64,000 nucleotides of DNA from Saccharofermentans sp. (GTDB lineage Bacteria; Bacillota; Clostridia; Saccharofermentanales; Saccharofermentanaceae), in assembly GCA_016292215.1 (NCBI GenBank), contig JAEFBB010000005.1:1-64000 (forward strand). The letters run 5' to 3'. Below, piece after piece: positions 53,783 through 61,763 of this stretch (positions within the stretch are counted from its first letter, which is position 1; each line of letters begins with the position of its first letter). The translations under genes and the position numbers were made by a program. Under the pieces are notes generated by a model. The model was not told the DNA's origin. It saw nothing but the letters and a program-made list of their open reading frames with translations, and searched no databases.

Positions 53783-54307
53783 TTGGATAATCTCATCATT
53801 ATAGGAAAGATTACCGGCGCGCACGGCGTCCGCGGGGAACTCAAGATATTCCCCCTTACGGACGACCCGCGCCGTTTCCTTAAACTTAAGGAATGTTTTA
53901 TCTGCGGGCAGAACTTTGAGAAGCCCGAAGCATTAATGTGTTCTTCTGCCAGACTCGACAGGGGAAACGTTCTTGTAAAGTTCGAAGGTGTCCTTGACAG
54001 AGACAAGGCAGAGCTCATGCGCGGCAGATTTATTGCCGTCGAGAGAGCCAATGCCGTAAAGCTCAAGAAGGACAGCTATTTCATCACTGACCTCAAAGGT
54101 CTTAAAGTCATTGACGACGACAGGGGAGATCTGGGTGTTGTTATCGACTGTTTTGCGACAGGTCCCCAATATACGCTTGAGATAAAGCGCGATAAGAAGA
54201 AAAACCTCATGCTCCCGTTCGTCAAAGTATATTGTTACGAAGTCGATATAGAGGCAGGATTTATCAAGTGCCGGTTGCCGGAAGGCCTCTACGAACTGTA
54301 CGACTGA
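53783..54307 (+). CDS. rimM: 16S rRNA processing protein RimM
   Basis: IGKITGAHGVRGELKIFPLTDDPRRF, VYCYEVDIE. Confidence 0.94.
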   Translation: MDNLIIIGKITGAHGVRGELKIFPLTDDPRRFLKLKECFICGQNFEKPEALMCSSARLDRGNVLVKFEGVLDRDKAELMRGRFIAVERANAVKLKKDSYFITDLKGLKVIDDDRGDLGVVIDCFATGPQYTLEIKRDKKKNLMLPFVKVYCYEVDIEAGFIKCRLPEGLYELYD

Positions 54308-54344: not shown

Positions 54345-55496
54345 ATGAAGATAGTCTACTTTATGACTCCTGCATACGGCCATGTTTTGCCTGTCCTGCC
54401 GATAATAAGAGAGCTCACAAAAAGAGGACATGAAGTCATCTGTTATGCCACGCCGCAGTTTAAGGATTATATCGGATCCTGCGGCTGCCATTACCGTGAG
54501 TATGACGAAGAATTCCATAACCTGAAAATAGATGAGATCACGGGCGATCTTTACAGACTTATGGAGACGCTCATAACGCTTAACGAGAAACAATACGATA
54601 ACTATATTGATGTGGTCAGAAGCGAATCTCCTGATCTTCTGATGTACGATTCGATGCTCTCATTTGCCAAGAATATTGCTTATAAACTGAATATAAAAAG
54701 CGTGTGCACCGCCGCAACGATCGGATTTAATCTGCCTGTGTGCATGTTCTCGAATATAGCCACATCAAGTGTTCCTCTCGTGCTTAAGAACGGCAAAGGA
54801 ATGAGAAGGCTCATCAAACAGGATAAGAAATTCAGAAAAGACAGGGGTCTTGCTAAGTTCAAGCTCATAGATCTTTATATGAATACCGCTGACTGTACTA
54901 TCGTCATGACACCTTATAAGCTTCAGCCGATGGCATGGACGTTCCCTAAGTCGGTTCATTTCGTTGGTACTACCATAAAAGAGCAGATAGAGATCCTTCA
55001 CGGCGGCGAATATGGCGATTACGACTGCTATATCTCTATGGGATCGGTTTTCGGGAAGAACGTAAATGAGATGAGAGATTTCTTGGAGTTTCCGGAGATG
55101 CGCGAAAAGAAGATCATCATATCAACGCCTGAGACACCTGACTGGATGAAGGGAATGCCCAACGTGCGTGCAGAAAAATGGGTACACAATGTAGATCTTA
55201 TTCCGAACGTCAAACTCTTCATAAATGTAGGCGGTGTCAGCTCGGTTTATACCGCAATGTATTACGGTGTAAGACAGATATCGATTCCCGCACAGGAAGA
55301 AGAGCGTTACAATGCAATTATATTAAAGCGGCACAAAGGCGGCTTCTATCTAAAAAGATACGAAAAGGATAAACTGTTAAAAGCAGTTAAGTCGGCAGAT
55401 AAGCTGAAGCCGGAGCTGTGTCAGAAGCTGATCCGCGAAGCAGACGGTACCGGGACCGCTGCTGAGCTGATCGAAGGAATGAGCGTAAACTTATGA
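54345..55496 (+). CDS. GT1/MGT-type glycosyltransferase
   Basis: MKIVYFMTPAYGHVLPVLPIIRELTKRGHEVICYA; C-terminal VGGVSSVYTAMYYGVRQISIPAQEEE. Confidence 0.85.
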   Translation: MKIVYFMTPAYGHVLPVLPIIRELTKRGHEVICYATPQFKDYIGSCGCHYREYDEEFHNLKIDEITGDLYRLMETLITLNEKQYDNYIDVVRSESPDLLMYDSMLSFAKNIAYKLNIKSVCTAATIGFNLPVCMFSNIATSSVPLVLKNGKGMRRLIKQDKKFRKDRGLAKFKLIDLYMNTADCTIVMTPYKLQPMAWTFPKSVHFVGTTIKEQIEILHGGEYGDYDCYISMGSVFGKNVNEMRDFLEFPEMREKKIIISTPETPDWMKGMPNVRAEKWVHNVDLIPNVKLFINVGGVSSVYTAMYYGVRQISIPAQEEERYNAIILKRHKGGFYLKRYEKDKLLKAVKSADKLKPELCQKLIREADGTGTAAELIEGMSVNL

Positions 55497-56497
55497 GTGA
55501 GAAAGTCTTGCTTACAGGAGCCACGGGATTTCTCGGAGGCTACGTAATAAAAGAACTGTCGGAGCGCGAAGGCTATGAAGTCATCGCCGTCGGCAGAAAT
55601 GAGAAGCGCGGCAGGGAGCTTGAAGCATATAAAGGCGTCAGGTTCGTCAAAGCCGATATCACCGATGAAGCAATGCTCGGATCGATCTTCGAAGAAGAGA
55701 GGCCCGATTATGTTATCCACACAGGCGCTTTAAGCTCCGCGTGGGGAAAGTACGATGATTTCTATCAGGCAAATGTTAAGTCTACGGTCATCATCGGCGG
55801 CCTTTGCATCAAGCACAATATCAAGCGCATGGTATATATCTCTTCTCCGAGTATCTATACAGCAAAGCGCGACAGGCTCGATATTAAGGAAGACGACTTC
55901 GATCCTGCCAACAAGCTGAATTTTTACATCAAGACAAAGCTGCTCTCTGAAAAAGAGCTCCACGCGTTGGAAGAAAAAGGTCTTAACCTTACGATCTTAA
56001 GACCCAGGGGCCTTATCGGTCCGGGCGATCCGAGCCTTATGCCACGCCTCATGCGCGCCAACGGCAAGATAGGCATTCCGCTTATCCGCAAGGGCAAGAT
56101 CATCGTAGACATCACATGCGTGCAGAATGTCGCTTATGCATGCTATCTTGCCATGACGACAGCTGATGCAAAGGGCATGACTTTCAACATAACCAACGGT
56201 GAGCCTTCGGAGTTTTCAAAGCTTCTTGAATTGTTCTGTACTGAAGCGGGAGAGACCGCAAAGTTCCTTAATCTTCCGTTCGGACTGATGTATGTGATGG
56301 CTTCGATTATGGAAGGCATCTATACGATCCTTCCGACAAAAAAGGAACCCGTGCTTACGAGATATACTGTCTGCACGTTGTCGTTCTCGCAGTCACTTGA
56401 TATAAGCAAAGCAAAGGAGATATTAGGCTACAGCCCCAAGATCTCACTTGCGGAAGGAATTCGTGAATATGGTAAATGGTGGCAGACAAATAAGTAG
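55493..56497 (+). CDS. NAD(P)-dependent epimerase/3-beta-HSD-like extended SDR (OleD-like)
   Basis: LLTGATGFLGGYVIKEL, YIKTK (YxxxK), LRPRGLIGPGD. Confidence 0.88.
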   Translation: MSEKVLLTGATGFLGGYVIKELSEREGYEVIAVGRNEKRGRELEAYKGVRFVKADITDEAMLGSIFEEERPDYVIHTGALSSAWGKYDDFYQANVKSTVIIGGLCIKHNIKRMVYISSPSIYTAKRDRLDIKEDDFDPANKLNFYIKTKLLSEKELHALEEKGLNLTILRPRGLIGPGDPSLMPRLMRANGKIGIPLIRKGKIIVDITCVQNVAYACYLAMTTADAKGMTFNITNGEPSEFSKLLELFCTEAGETAKFLNLPFGLMYVMASIMEGIYTILPTKKEPVLTRYTVCTLSFSQSLDISKAKEILGYSPKISLAEGIREYGKWWQTNK

Positions 56498-57293
56498 TGT
56501 AACGCTCTATGCCTGCGGAACCTGCAAGAATAATATAGCGTCCGTATTAAAGGGCGAGAAGAAGAAAGAGATAGTCTTTCCTGCGCTCGTCGCGCGTCTT
56601 GAACATGAGAAGTCAGGCACTGTCCTCTTTGATACCGGCTACTCGGAAAGGATCTACGGCAACGGCATAGTCTCTAAGATCTATAATCTCCTGAATCCTT
56701 CTGACGTAAGGGAAGAAGATACGATCAGCCACAAGATGAAGACTGAAGGCCGCAAGGTAAGCTATATCATCTTAAGCCATCCGCATCCCGATCACATAGG
56801 CTGTCTTAAAGACTTCAAAGACTATACTCTGCTTGCTACAGAAGACTGTATCAATGGTCTTAGGAAATCGAAAAATACAGAGCTCGTTTTCCGCAACCAG
56901 GTGCCTGATATGACAGGCGGAATTAAGATAAGAAGCCTTGAGCCTCTGACACAAAATGACGGTGAAGCCGGAATGCTCTTAAAGCACTTTACGGAAGTAT
57001 ACGATGTCTTAGGAGACGGAAGCGTATACGGAGTAAGGCTTGACGGTCATACAAAAGGGCAGATGGGCATTTATATCCCTGAGTATAAGCTTTTGCTGGC
57101 TGCAGACGCTTCCTGGGGGCATTATTTTGCGGACCGTGTAGATAAGATGAGATTCATGCCAAAGAGGATCCAGAAGGATTACAAGGTCTATAAAGACACC
57201 GTAGAGCGCGTTAAGGCTTTCGAGAAGGAGCATCCTGATGTCAGGGTAATCTATTCCCACGAAGAATTCCCGGAGGGCGTCTATGAGCAATAA
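56469..57293 (+). CDS. MBL-fold hydrolase (lactonase-like)
   Basis: SHPHPDHIG (HxHxDH), LFDTGYS, GHTKGQMG, LLAADASWG. Confidence 0.85.
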   Translation: MVNGGRQISSVTLYACGTCKNNIASVLKGEKKKEIVFPALVARLEHEKSGTVLFDTGYSERIYGNGIVSKIYNLLNPSDVREEDTISHKMKTEGRKVSYIILSHPHPDHIGCLKDFKDYTLLATEDCINGLRKSKNTELVFRNQVPDMTGGIKIRSLEPLTQNDGEAGMLLKHFTEVYDVLGDGSVYGVRLDGHTKGQMGIYIPEYKLLLAADASWGHYFADRVDKMRFMPKRIQKDYKVYKDTVERVKAFEKEHPDVRVIYSHEEFPEGVYEQ

Positions 57294-58551
57294 GATCGAT
57301 ATCCTCAGGACATATCTCAAATACAAGAACATGCGCTTTAAAGACCGCGCGGCGCTTGAGAAATACCAGGAAAAGAAGATAAGCAAACAGCTTGATTTTG
57401 TTACTTCGCATTCCAGGCTTTATGAGAAGTATAAGGGCAAGCCGCTATCTGATTATCCTCTTATGGATAAGAAGCAGATGATGGAGCATTTCGATGAGCT
57501 CAACACGGTAGGCACGAACCGCGACGAAGCAATGAAGCTTGCGATAGATTCGGAAAGAAGCCGTGATTTCTCCGAAAAGCTCAATCACATTACAGTGGGC
57601 CTGAGCTCAGGAACGAGTGATACGAGAGGCATTTTCCTTGTGTCCGATAAAGAGAAGGACACGTGGGCAGGCTATATCCTGTCTAAGGTCTTATACGGAT
57701 CCATTCTCGGAAAATATGAAGTCGCTTTCTTCATGAGAGCGAATTCGAATCTTTATGAATCAGTAAGTTCATCCAATATTCACTTTGTTTTCTATGACAT
57801 CTACAAGGATGTTGATGATAATATCAGGAAACTTTTGGAGCAGAAGCCGGATATAATCGTGGGCCAGCCGTCCATTCTTCTGGATCTTTGCCGCGTCGCT
57901 AAAAATCTTCATCCGAAGAAGGTCATATCCATAGCCGAAGTTCTTGAAGACCGCGACAGGGAGGAGATCAAGAAAGCATTTAACGTCGATGTGATACATC
58001 AGGTCTATCAGTGTACCGAAGGCTGTCTTGCCACGACATGCGAATACGGCACTATCCATCTCAATGAGGATATCGTGCATGTGGAAAAGGAGTATCTGGA
58101 TGACAGAAGATTCATTCCGGTGATCACCGATTTCACGAGGACTTCGCAGCCGATAATAAGATACCGCTTAAACGATATACTGGTAGAGCGCAAAGAGCCT
58201 TGCCCCTGCGGGAGCTGTTTTACCGCGCTCGAAAGGATCGAAGGAAGAGAAGATGATGTATTTGTCTTTGACTGTGAAGAGAATAAGAGTGTAGAAGTAT
58301 TCCCGGACTTCATAAGAAGGCTTGTCCTTTTCGCAGGCGACGTCAGCGATTACAGGATAGTCCAGACTGAAGACGGAAGCATGGAAGTTTATTGGAATGA
58401 GAATGATGCCATGAAGGATAAGTTCATGACCGAGCTTAAGAAAATGGCGTCAGACAGGGGATTTGATTTACCTGAGGTCAAATTTTACACGTATTCATTT
58501 GACCGCAGTAAAAAGTTGAAACGTGTGGAATCAAGGAGAAAGAGAAAATGA
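57283..58551 (+). CDS. Adenylate-forming enzyme, F390-synthetase/phenylacetate-CoA-ligase-like
   Basis: VGLSSGTSDTRGIFLVS, YQCTEGCLATTC, PIIRYRLNDIL. Confidence 0.85.
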   Translation: MSNKIDILRTYLKYKNMRFKDRAALEKYQEKKISKQLDFVTSHSRLYEKYKGKPLSDYPLMDKKQMMEHFDELNTVGTNRDEAMKLAIDSERSRDFSEKLNHITVGLSSGTSDTRGIFLVSDKEKDTWAGYILSKVLYGSILGKYEVAFFMRANSNLYESVSSSNIHFVFYDIYKDVDDNIRKLLEQKPDIIVGQPSILLDLCRVAKNLHPKKVISIAEVLEDRDREEIKKAFNVDVIHQVYQCTEGCLATTCEYGTIHLNEDIVHVEKEYLDDRRFIPVITDFTRTSQPIIRYRLNDILVERKEPCPCGSCFTALERIEGREDDVFVFDCEENKSVEVFPDFIRRLVLFAGDVSDYRIVQTEDGSMEVYWNENDAMKDKFMTELKKMASDRGFDLPEVKFYTYSFDRSKKLKRVESRRKRK

Positions 58552-59483
58552 GAAAAGTAGAGATTATCGGTTATGGTTATTATGTTCCGGAAAATACAGT
58601 TGAATTTGACGGACAGATAAGACACAGAGTACCTGAAGGCGGAAATGACACCCAGTTATCAATGGCAGTATCAGCAGCTAAGGCAGCGCTCGAAAAAGCT
58701 TCTCTTGATATCACGGATATCGGCTGCATCGTATCTTCCAGTGCCGTCGGCGTACAGCCTATCCCGTGCACGGCAGCTCTGATCCATGAGCAGATCGCGA
58801 AGGGCACTGATATTCCGGCAATTGATATTAACAGCACATGCACCAGCTTTGTGTCTGCATTTGATTATGTAAGTTACCTGATCGATGCAGGACGCTATAA
58901 CAAAGTGCTTCTGGTAGCAAGTGAACTTGCGTCAGTCGGCCTTAACCCTAAGCAGAAGGAAAGCTATGAGCTGTTCGGAGACGGCGCTGCCGCTGTTGTG
59001 CTCAGCAGATGCGAGAACGGCGGATCCGGTGTTATCTACGGTAAGCAGGCTACATGGTCTGAAGGTGCTCATGACACTGAGATCAGAGGCGGTCTCACGG
59101 GTCTTTACCCTGACAAGTATGTGGAAGCTCCTGAAGAATACTGCTTTGATATGAACGGCCTTAAAGTCTTAAAGCTTGCGGGAAGAAAGCTTCCGAAGTT
59201 CTTTGACGCCGTTTTGAAAGAGAGCGGATACACCATGGATAATATCGATATGGTAGTCCCTCATCAGGCCAGCAAAGCTCTCGGAATGATCATGCCTCTC
59301 ATCGGCGTTCCGAAGAACAAATATATCGACATAGTTCCCGAGTACGGAAATATGGTATCCGTTGCGATACCGCACGCGCTGATCTGGGCCATCGAGAACG
59401 GAAAGATCAGGAAAGGCGATACGGTACTTCTCATCGGTACAGCCGCAGGTCTCACTGCGAATGCGCTGCTGTTCAAGTATTGA
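58548..59483 (+). CDS. Beta-ketoacyl-ACP synthase III/OleA-like thiolase
   Basis: DINSTCTSF, VPHQASKAL, EYGNMVSVAIP (Cys-His-Asn triad). Confidence 0.9.
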   Translation: MRKVEIIGYGYYVPENTVEFDGQIRHRVPEGGNDTQLSMAVSAAKAALEKASLDITDIGCIVSSSAVGVQPIPCTAALIHEQIAKGTDIPAIDINSTCTSFVSAFDYVSYLIDAGRYNKVLLVASELASVGLNPKQKESYELFGDGAAAVVLSRCENGGSGVIYGKQATWSEGAHDTEIRGGLTGLYPDKYVEAPEEYCFDMNGLKVLKLAGRKLPKFFDAVLKESGYTMDNIDMVVPHQASKALGMIMPLIGVPKNKYIDIVPEYGNMVSVAIPHALIWAIENGKIRKGDTVLLIGTAAGLTANALLFKY

Positions 59484-59592: not shown

Positions 59593-61023
59593 ATGGGAAG
59601 AGGCGGCGGAGGTGGTAGTTCTCACCACAGCTCACATTCATCAAGCAGTCATTCACATCATTCAAGCAGCTCGTCGTATCGTTCGTCGAGTTCGTCATCT
59701 TCGCATCATTCCGGCGGTTCATATCATTCCGGCAGCAGTTACGGTGGCGGAGGATCAGGCGGCGGATGTCTGTCTACTTTCATAACTCTGTTCATCGTCT
59801 TCGGATTTATTGGCTTAGGCTTTTTCTTAGCTGTCTTTAAAGGCGAAGGCGGCGGAAGAGTAGGAGACTTTATAAGACTCGAGAGATCAACTGTACAAAG
59901 AGAAGCTTTGCCTGAATCTAAGTGTGATCCCATCGATGAATGGTATAGTGACGACTGGGGCGACTGGATCGACCAGTCAGGCGAAGAGACCGCTCTTGTA
60001 GACGGTCTTAAGTACTTCTATGAGAAGACAGGCGTACAGCCTTATCTTTGGATCATGGGCGAAGAAGGCGCAGACTATAAGTCTGAAGGCAGTCTCGAGG
60101 AGCTTGCCGAATCCAAGTACATAGAGATGTTCGGTAAAGACGAAGGACACGTCCTCGTTATTTTCCGCGAGTATCCTAATGAATCAGGCAACTATATCTG
60201 CGTTGTAACTCCGGGTTACGATGCCGAGACCCAGGTCCTTGACGAAGAGGCAAGAGAGATCCTTTTAGACTGGATCGATTACTATTACACCGATGACAGC
60301 CTTAATGAAGGCCGTTTCTTCGAGAAGTCTTTCGAGACTGCAGCAGACAAGATGATGGTCAAGCAGCTGTCCTGGAAGCAGATCGGAGTGATCATTGTGG
60401 TCGCTGCTATCGTTGTAGTCGGTATTATCATCACCGCAGGCATCATCAAGAAGCGTAAGGTCGCAGTTGCCAAGCAGAAAGCTAAGCAGGCCCAGGCTGA
60501 GAAGGATAAGAAGCAGATCGAATTCAACCAGCAGAAGTACAACGATGCTCTCGAAAAGGAGTATGTATCCGTCGAGTGTCCCAACTGCGGCTCTGCAGGC
60601 AACAAGATCCGTAAGGGCACGGTAGCTTACTGCCAGTTCTGCGGTTCTGCCATCAGCGTAGACATGATCGGCCAGGCCTTTATCGGCGATATCTTCTCGC
60701 AGCAGCAGGCACAGCCTCAGCAGCAGGCATACCAGCAGGCTCCTGCTTATCAACAGGCACCGGCATACCAGCAGGCACCGGCATACCAGCAGGCTCCTGC
60801 ATACCAGCAGGCACCGGCATACCAGCAGGCTCCTGCATACCAGCAGCCCGCATATCAGCAGCCTGCGTATCAACAGCCTGCTTATCAGCAGCCGCAGACC
60901 TATCAGCAGCCTGTCCAGGCATATCCGCAGGCTCCTCAGGCTTATCCTCAGGCACCGCAGTACCAGCCTGCACCGCAAGGCTACCAGCAGCCTCCTCAGA
61001 ATTATCAGCAGCCGCCGCAATGA
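59593..61023 (+). CDS. TPM-domain (YdjH-like) membrane protein with Ser/His-rich N-terminus, zinc ribbon and PAYQQ repeats
   Basis: Low-complexity SSHHSS start, TM helix, TPM-like region, second TM, VECPNCGSAGNKIRKGTVAYCQFCGSAI, PAYQQA repeats. Confidence 0.85.
   Translation: MGRGGGGGSSHHSSHSSSSHSHHSSSSSYRSSSSSSSHHSGGSYHSGSSYGGGGSGGGCLSTFITLFIVFGFIGLGFFLAVFKGEGGGRVGDFIRLERSTVQREALPESKCDPIDEWYSDDWGDWIDQSGEETALVDGLKYFYEKTGVQPYLWIMGEEGADYKSEGSLEELAESKYIEMFGKDEGHVLVIFREYPNESGNYICVVTPGYDAETQVLDEEAREILLDWIDYYYTDDSLNEGRFFEKSFETAADKMMVKQLSWKQIGVIIVVAAIVVVGIIITAGIIKKRKVAVAKQKAKQAQAEKDKKQIEFNQQKYNDALEKEYVSVECPNCGSAGNKIRKGTVAYCQFCGSAISVDMIGQAFIGDIFSQQQAQPQQQAYQQAPAYQQAPAYQQAPAYQQAPAYQQAPAYQQAPAYQQPAYQQPAYQQPAYQQPQTYQQPVQAYPQAPQAYPQAPQYQPAPQGYQQPPQNYQQPPQ
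60730..60897 (+). repeat. In-frame tandem repeats, six 18-bp then four 15-bp units
   Basis: TACCAGCAGGC(ACCG/TCCT)GCA units; 60766-60801 is identical to 60802-60837. Confidence 0.92.
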
Positions 61024-61763
61024 TGAATTTCTACGTAGCGACATTATTTCCTGAGCAGGTTACTTCGTATCTTAATACGAGCATTACAGGACGCGGAATC
61101 GCGAAAGGCGCGATCGCTTTGGAATGCATCCAGATGAGGGATTATGCGCCGAATACTTATGGCCGCGTTGATGACACCATCTATGGCGGCGGTACCGGCA
61201 TGATGATCCGTCCCGAGCCTGTCTACGGCGCTTATGAAAAGGCTGTAGAATTATGCGGAGGAAAGAAGCCTTATACGGTCTATATGTCTCCTAAGGGCAA
61301 GGTTTTCAATCAGGCCAAGGCGCACGAACTCGCGGGGCGTGAGAACCTTCTCATTATCTGCGGTCATTACGAGGGAATCGATGCCAGGGTTATCAATGAT
61401 ATCTGCGACGAAGAGATATCTATCGGAGATTATGTCTTAACAGGCGGTGAGACGGCGGCAATCGTCGTTATCGATGCCGTGGCAAGGCTTGTCCCGGGCG
61501 TTCTTCCCAATGAAGAGGCTTATACCAACGAGTCTCATACTGACGGAATGCTCGAAGCGCCCCAATATACCAAGCCTCCGGTATGGCACGGACAAGAGGT
61601 CCCGGAAGTCTTAAAAAACGGCAACGACGCAGCAATTGCGGACTATAACCGCATTGCAGCACTGGTCGATACATGGCACAACAGGCCCGATATGCTGGAC
61701 AAATTGGACATTTCGGAGAGCGATTGGGCTAAAATGCTTGCCTTTGAAAGAGGCATGTGCTAA
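61020..61763 (+). CDS. trmD: tRNA (guanine-N1)-methyltransferase
   Basis: [55 protein letters not shown]. Confidence 0.97.

Follow-up and report, generated by a model that had tools for sequence, protein, structure and literature searches.

What is made by the five genes that separate rimM from trmD in a genome of Saccharofermentans sp.? The window analysed here is a stretch of 64,000 nucleotides (contig JAEFBB010000005.1 of assembly GCA_016292215.1; the host genome comprises 2.3 Mb in 73 contigs), and the genes occupy positions 54345–59483. They encode, in order, a GT1 glycosyltransferase (GT), an extended short-chain dehydrogenase/reductase (SDR), a metallo-beta-lactamase-fold (MBL) hydrolase, an adenylate-forming enzyme of family TIGR02304 and a ketoacyl-acyl carrier protein synthase III (KASIII). 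An earlier note, made from the sequence alone, had read them as one coupled biosynthetic cassette, perhaps for a head-to-head acyl condensation related to the Ole pathway. All five open reading frames are found on the forward strand with the boundaries that it gave (Table 1), and the consecutive genes overlap by 4, 29, 11 and 4 nt. The last four genes form a core that recurs widely, and the catalytic residues are kept in all four core enzymes and in the GT. The cassette is more important than the earlier note stated, because it contains a widespread core and is not a local oddity. Judged from the sequences, the core may make a two-chain (branched) beta-hydroxy lipid or polyketide to which a head group is then added, a reading that we hold tentatively and at a little under an even chance.

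Occurrence and conservation of the core

Within the family, of which 115 genomes were searched, TIGR02304 scores above its cut-off in seven genomes of the genus, the host included. All seven have the same order rimM-GT1-SDR-MBL-TIGR02304-KASIII-...-trmD at the same site. Together with the overlaps this bears out the coupled cassette of the earlier note, and the site shared by seven congeners, plus the occurrence in isolate genomes, rules out chance neighbours or an artefact of assembly.

The distribution is patchy, because TIGR02304 is present in only one genome (this one) of a sample of 391 from the class and in four of 149 from the phylum. Scanning a single genome for each GTDB species gave at least 573 confirmed TIGR02304 relatives, and 80 loci were kept for analysis. 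The complete SDR-MBL-TIGR02304 block with a KASIII is present in 76 of these, the other four being cut by contig ends or having a broken frame. The co-occurrence of the families predicted by the earlier note is thus seen both in the genus, for all five genes, and for the core in loci elsewhere. KASIII is the last gene, as in the window, in 66 of the complete loci and the first in 10, all from Bacillales. The hosts include Lachnospiraceae, Clostridium, Streptococcus (sanguinis, oralis, infantis and parasanguinis), Enterococcus, Acholeplasma, Erysipelotrichaceae, Bacillus and Paenibacillus.

The pairwise identities of the core proteins co-vary strongly (r = 0.90–0.97 over 62 loci, with a permuted maximum of 0.27), and the core therefore travels together. 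The SDR and MBL are fused into a single protein in nine loci, including those of the isolates Clostridium transplantifaecale and Acetatifactor muris, and in one locus the GT1, SDR and MBL form a single protein; these fusions argue for consecutive steps. Of the 64 KASIII-last loci with sufficient upstream sequence, 52 have a GT1 gene no more than 6.5 kb from the SDR. The cassette is horizontally patchy yet internally conserved. A phage or defence origin was considered and rejected, the phage collection giving two weak partial matches to the adenylate-forming protein and nothing else. A lone TIGR02304 gene occurs amid hypothetical genes on a Pseudomonas megaplasmid (L081:7965-9263), where the other three core genes are absent.

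The condensing enzyme

Sequence, tree and fold all make MxnB and CorB, of myxopyronin and corallopyronin biosynthesis, the closest solved relatives of the cassette KASIII. Its profile scores are 251 bits for MxnB and 239 bits for CorB, followed by 222 bits for the best FabH, 161 bits for E. coli FabH, 130 bits for PqsD and 94 bits for OleA. For the host's own FabH, taken as a control, the order is reversed (E. coli FabH 249, CorB 122, MxnB 119 and OleA 83 bits). CorB and MxnB also head the fold search with the predicted structure, which has a predicted local distance difference test score (pLDDT) of 91.6. In a tree of 22 rows, with OleA and PpyS not included, the cassette KASIII and MxnB/CorB are split from FabH with support of 100/100; the split gives only the side of the tree, not the placement within the cassette clade.

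The triad C98–H239–N268 is invariant in the family members aligned. It is shared with MxnB and CorB, as are the common Q in the motif [E/Q/V]-Q-x-[VIL]-P and an aliphatic residue in place of the glutamate of OleA and PpyS. At the position of the catalytic Glu117 of OleA the window KASIII has Ile72, and the family has I or L. Since the OleA/PpyS base is absent, the chain that attacks should be one with an acidic alpha-carbon, of beta-ketoacyl or malonyl type; from its sequence the enzyme is unlikely to join two plain acyl chains without decarboxylation by the OleA mechanism. The window-type subgroup of KASIII also lacks a segment of ~18 residues that bears W32 and R36 of FabH, residues known for binding the adenine of coenzyme A (CoA).

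In their own pathways MxnB and CorB connect one polyketide chain to another (PMC5724707, PMC4578411), and they have V94 where PpyS and OleA have glutamate (PMC4578411). The idea of head-to-head joining in the earlier note thus survives in another form, because the nearest characterised relatives of the KASIII join two acyl chains in this way. The settings differ, however. The MxnB and CorB ketosynthases are fed by the carrier proteins of large type I polyketide synthases (PKS) and the pathway ends in an alpha-pyrone, whereas the cassette has no PKS and its KASIII is accompanied by an SDR, an MBL and a ligase.

That the cassette KASIII might be the sole housekeeping fabH, which the earlier note had raised against its own reading, is rejected. 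The FabH-type KASIII of this genome is a second one, located on contig C33 within a type II fatty acid synthesis operon that also encodes two FabF-type synthases, FabG, a FabK-like enzyme and FabD.

The other enzymes of the cassette

The adenylate-forming enzyme is a member of TIGR02304, with 503 bits against a curated cut-off of 251.9, and has no match to the Pfam AMP-binding family. It retains the motifs SSGTS, YQxTEG, YRLND and GRxDD and the C-terminal Lys411. The nearest fold to its AlphaFold2 model (pLDDT 89.4) is that of the PaaK-type protein BT_0428.

For the SDR the best NCBIfam match is OleD (NF042422), at 186.4 bits and below the cut-off of 580, and the nearest solved structure is a sterol-4-carboxylate 3-dehydrogenase (6jkg). 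S117, Y145 and K149 are conserved, together with a nucleotide loop of the TGxTGxLG type. OleD and NSDHL are the nearest relatives, and the substrates of the family are beta-keto or beta-hydroxy acids. The best solved relatives of the MBL are N-acyl homoserine lactone (AHL) lactonases, and its match to PqsE is weak. The HxHxDH motif (H104, H106, D108 and H109), H194 and D213, a dinuclear-metal motif, are invariant in 12 diverse members.

The cluster resembles OleABCD in bringing together a condensing enzyme, an OleD-like reductase and an adenylate-forming enzyme. This is what would be expected of an Ole-like olefin or beta-lactone pathway with a glycosylated product, in which the adenylate-forming enzyme would take the role of OleC and the lactonase-like MBL would replace OleB. 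The cassette differs in several respects, however. The KASIII is not of OleA type, scoring 94 bits and having Ile72 in place of the glutamate; the adenylate-forming enzyme is of PaaK/F390 type and not an AMP-binding-domain OleC; and the SDR is far below the OleD cut-off (186 versus 580). No OleB alpha/beta hydrolase was found among the cassette open reading frames of the window and its congeners, there is an extra MBL and a glycosyltransferase, and an olefin would offer the latter no hydroxyl group. The literal Ole pathway is rejected on three defining features, and the Ole-like reading of the earlier note is improbable. The relationship proposed in the earlier note thus holds for the OleD-like SDR and for a KASIII nearest to two-chain joiners, but not for membership of the Ole systems or a close relation to them. 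For the MBL, action as a lactonase or thioesterase would be more probable than a role equivalent to that of OleB.

The GT has 137.6 bits to TIGR01426 (MGT), below the cut-off of 260, and is above the cut-off of Pfam UDPGT. The catalytic-type His13 (P-x-x-G-H) is invariant in every cassette GT1 aligned. In this genus the donor loop (residues 294–325) reads NVGG...EEER, as against the usual HGG...D/E-Q, which suggests an unusual sugar donor.

Gram-negative relatives and accessory genes

Of 5,426 complete E. coli genomes, 672 (~12%) have the core, those of many clinical strains and of the probiotic Nissle 1917 among them. It is located between narGHJI and purU with the KASIII gene first. There it is part of a seven-gene cluster KASIII-SDR-MBL-TIGR02304-PAP2-hydroxylase-desaturase (L082:5191-12072, in the E. 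coli plasmid record NZ_CP141085.1), the hydroxylase being of the fatty-acid-hydroxylase type. By sequence, the arrangement in Burkholderia matches that of E. coli, with PAP2, hydroxylase and desaturase. In Ketogulonicigenium and Paracoccus the core is found with a divergent TetR regulator and a sulfotransferase, and in Paenibacillus, Pontibacillus and Bacillus with an ATP-grasp gene and in some also a GNAT gene. The loci of E. coli, Burkholderia, Paenibacillus and Rhodobacterales thus share the four genes KASIII, SDR, MBL and TIGR02304 with the window, but begin with KASIII and have other accessories instead of GT1.

The glycosyltransferase itself is variable. GT1 is replaced by a GT21 of the ceramide-glucosyltransferase type in Fusobacterium and Enterococcus (L079 and L116), and a GT4 accompanies the core in L117, from a bin labelled Saccharibacteria. 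This bears on whether the cassette might modify or detoxify a foreign metabolite instead of making a product, as the likeness of the GT to macrolide glycosyltransferases and of the MBL to quorum-quenching lactonases could imply. Strictly conserved condensing and acid-activating enzymes would make no sense in such a cassette, however, and the four-gene core is constant while the GT varies, being missing from some loci and belonging to other GT families in others. We regard detoxification as very improbable.

The accessory genes encode types of enzyme that work on lipid chains or lipid alcohols, or attach head groups. The set of GT1, GT21, GT4, PAP2, hydroxylase, desaturase and sulfotransferase suggests a lipid-like core with interchangeable head groups. 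Two loci carry further genes. In L117 the cassette precedes genes for a biotin carboxyl carrier and a biotin carboxylase (L117:10429-11757). In L119 it is followed by biotin carboxyl carrier, biotin carboxylase, carboxyltransferase-like and FabD-like genes and preceded by an Sfp-type phosphopantetheinyl transferase (L119:5716-13786). The carboxylase genes of both loci and the phosphopantetheinyl transferase of L119 hint at a supply of malonyl units and carrier protein.

A possible pathway

From the gene set, its conservation, the intact catalytic residues, the fusions and the relationship to MxnB and CorB, all directly observed, we infer substrates, an order of steps, a product and a biological role. 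A carboxylic acid would be activated by the TIGR02304 enzyme as the acyl-adenylate and passed on as a thioester. A Claisen condensation by the MxnB/CorB-like KASIII would then link two acyl chains, the attacking one being of beta-ketoacyl or malonyl type. A lactone or thioester formed as an intermediate would be opened or released by the MBL hydrolase. Reduction of the beta-keto group would fall to the OleD-like SDR, which is often found as a fusion with the MBL, and GT1 would glycosylate the resulting hydroxyl group.

Several points weigh against such two-chain chemistry. The pathway is predicted from the genes, the cassette itself encodes neither a carrier protein nor a PKS module, and the accessory genes are so varied that the product of the core might differ from taxon to taxon. 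The KASIII tree has few rows and lacks OleA and PpyS, and a published tree places MxnB and CorB inside the FabH clade (PMC4578411). The ~30% identity to MxnB and CorB does not prove that the cassette enzyme joins two chains, and Ile or Leu at the position of the OleA glutamate would fit a malonyl-type decarboxylative condensation equally well. The deletion of the W32/R36 segment carries no known functional reading.

The main rival is a logic like that of the Pseudomonas quinolone signal (PQS), which is synthesized using the ligase PqsA, the KASIII PqsD and the MBL thioesterase PqsE. The TIGR02304 enzyme would provide an acyl-CoA or acyl carrier protein thioester, the KASIII would extend it with malonyl and loss of CO2, and the MBL would release a beta-keto acid as a thioesterase. 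The SDR would reduce this to a beta-hydroxy acid (or, after decarboxylation, a ketone to an alcohol), and the GT would complete a single-chain glycolipid or an aryl glycoside. The same classes of enzyme, an acid-activating enzyme, a KASIII and an MBL hydrolase for a beta-keto thioester, do operate in PQS synthesis, and aryl-adenylates are the normal product of PaaK-type enzymes. The KASIII lacks the OleA glutamate, like FabH, and acetyl-CoA carboxylase genes adjoin the cassette in L117 and L119, one of them with the phosphopantetheinyl transferase upstream. Yet the KASIII is nearer to MxnB/CorB (MxnB 251 bits) than to FabH or PqsD (130 bits for the latter), the MBL is nearer to AHL lactonases than to PqsE, to which its homology is weak, and the CoA-adenine segment of FabH is lost in the window subgroup. 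The cassette also has no PqsBC, and adds an SDR and a GT. We consider the PQS-like route rather unlikely, and prefer the two-chain product.

In its broadest form the two-chain proposal would extend to a previously unrecognised, ceramide-like class of lipids across phyla, with interchangeable caps as head groups. The cap would be a sugar in Clostridia, Streptococcus and Fusobacterium and sulfate in Rhodobacterales; in E. coli and Burkholderia it would be a PAP2-dependent phospho group, accompanied by hydroxylation and desaturation. Such a class is possible but doubtful.

The enzyme families and the idea of a two-chain KASIII are already known; their combination here and its product are not. No description of the cassette or of the E. 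coli cluster was found in the open-licence papers searched, where F390 synthetase is mentioned in passing only. The uncharacterised four-enzyme core spans oral streptococci, Fusobacterium, Enterococcus, Paenibacillus, rumen Clostridia and E. coli. Should its product be a lipid or polyketide, bacteria commonly associated with humans would be making a metabolite undescribed in the open-access papers searched. Tractable host strains make the role of the core directly testable.

Gene layout and the rimM–trmD slot

The features of the locus are itemized in Table 1. A possible alternative start for the MBL is an in-frame TTG at 56448, upstream of 56469. A scan for promoters gave a result no better than chance.

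Table 1. Features between rimM and trmD, and the flanking genes, in the window
Feature	Position	Strand	Evidence or remark
rimM, left flank of slot, outside pathway	53783..54307	+	TIGR02273 139 bits
GT1 (macrolide/UGT-type) glycosyltransferase, proposed head-group (sugar) transferase	54345..55496	+	TIGR01426 137.6 bits, Pfam UDPGT
Extended SDR, OleD/NSDHL-like, proposed beta-keto reductase	55493..56497	+	OleD NF042422 186.4 bits
MBL hydrolase, AHL-lactonase-like, proposed lactone/thioester hydrolase	56469..57293	+	AhlS 43 bits
PaaK-superfamily adenylate-forming enzyme TIGR02304 (F390 synthetase-related)	57283..58551	+	503 bits vs cut-off 252
KASIII, MxnB/CorB side of KASIII tree, proposed two-chain condensing enzyme	58548..59483	+	PRK07204/FabH-like 297/159 bits
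Gly/Ser-rich, zinc-ribbon membrane-type protein, outside pathway	59593..61023	+	between cassette and trmD
trmD, right flank of slot	61020..61763	+	TIGR00088 249 bits

The distance from the end of rimM to the start of trmD is 6.7 kb, as the earlier note had given it, but the last 1.4 kb is not part of the cassette. This section encodes a Gly/Ser-rich protein and is excluded because, in congeners that lack the cassette (L052, L056-L058 and L173), the same protein is the only one encoded between rimM and trmD. Elsewhere among the cassette-free congeners the slot is empty, or contains an EAL/GGDEF protein with a small membrane protein, or a MutS-like protein. Among the seven carriers the slot has in addition an acyltransferase in one and two further genes in two. 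Its varied contents mark the rimM|trmD interval as a slot for variable cargo in this genus, and a single insertion of 6.7 kb is in part rejected.

The two further genes follow KASIII in two congeners (L035:10065-14233 and L036:5483-9651) and encode proteins of 363 and ~1,010 amino acids, neither of which has a family match. In the larger, which resembles a surface protein, the N-terminus is signal-like and repeats are present. The Gly/Ser-rich protein of the window has no Pfam family above threshold. Its N-terminus is rich in Gly, Ser and His, and it further has a membrane segment, a zinc-ribbon motif and a long tail of PAYQQ-type repeats; the protein is duplicated in one genome (G054, L039:1167-3359).

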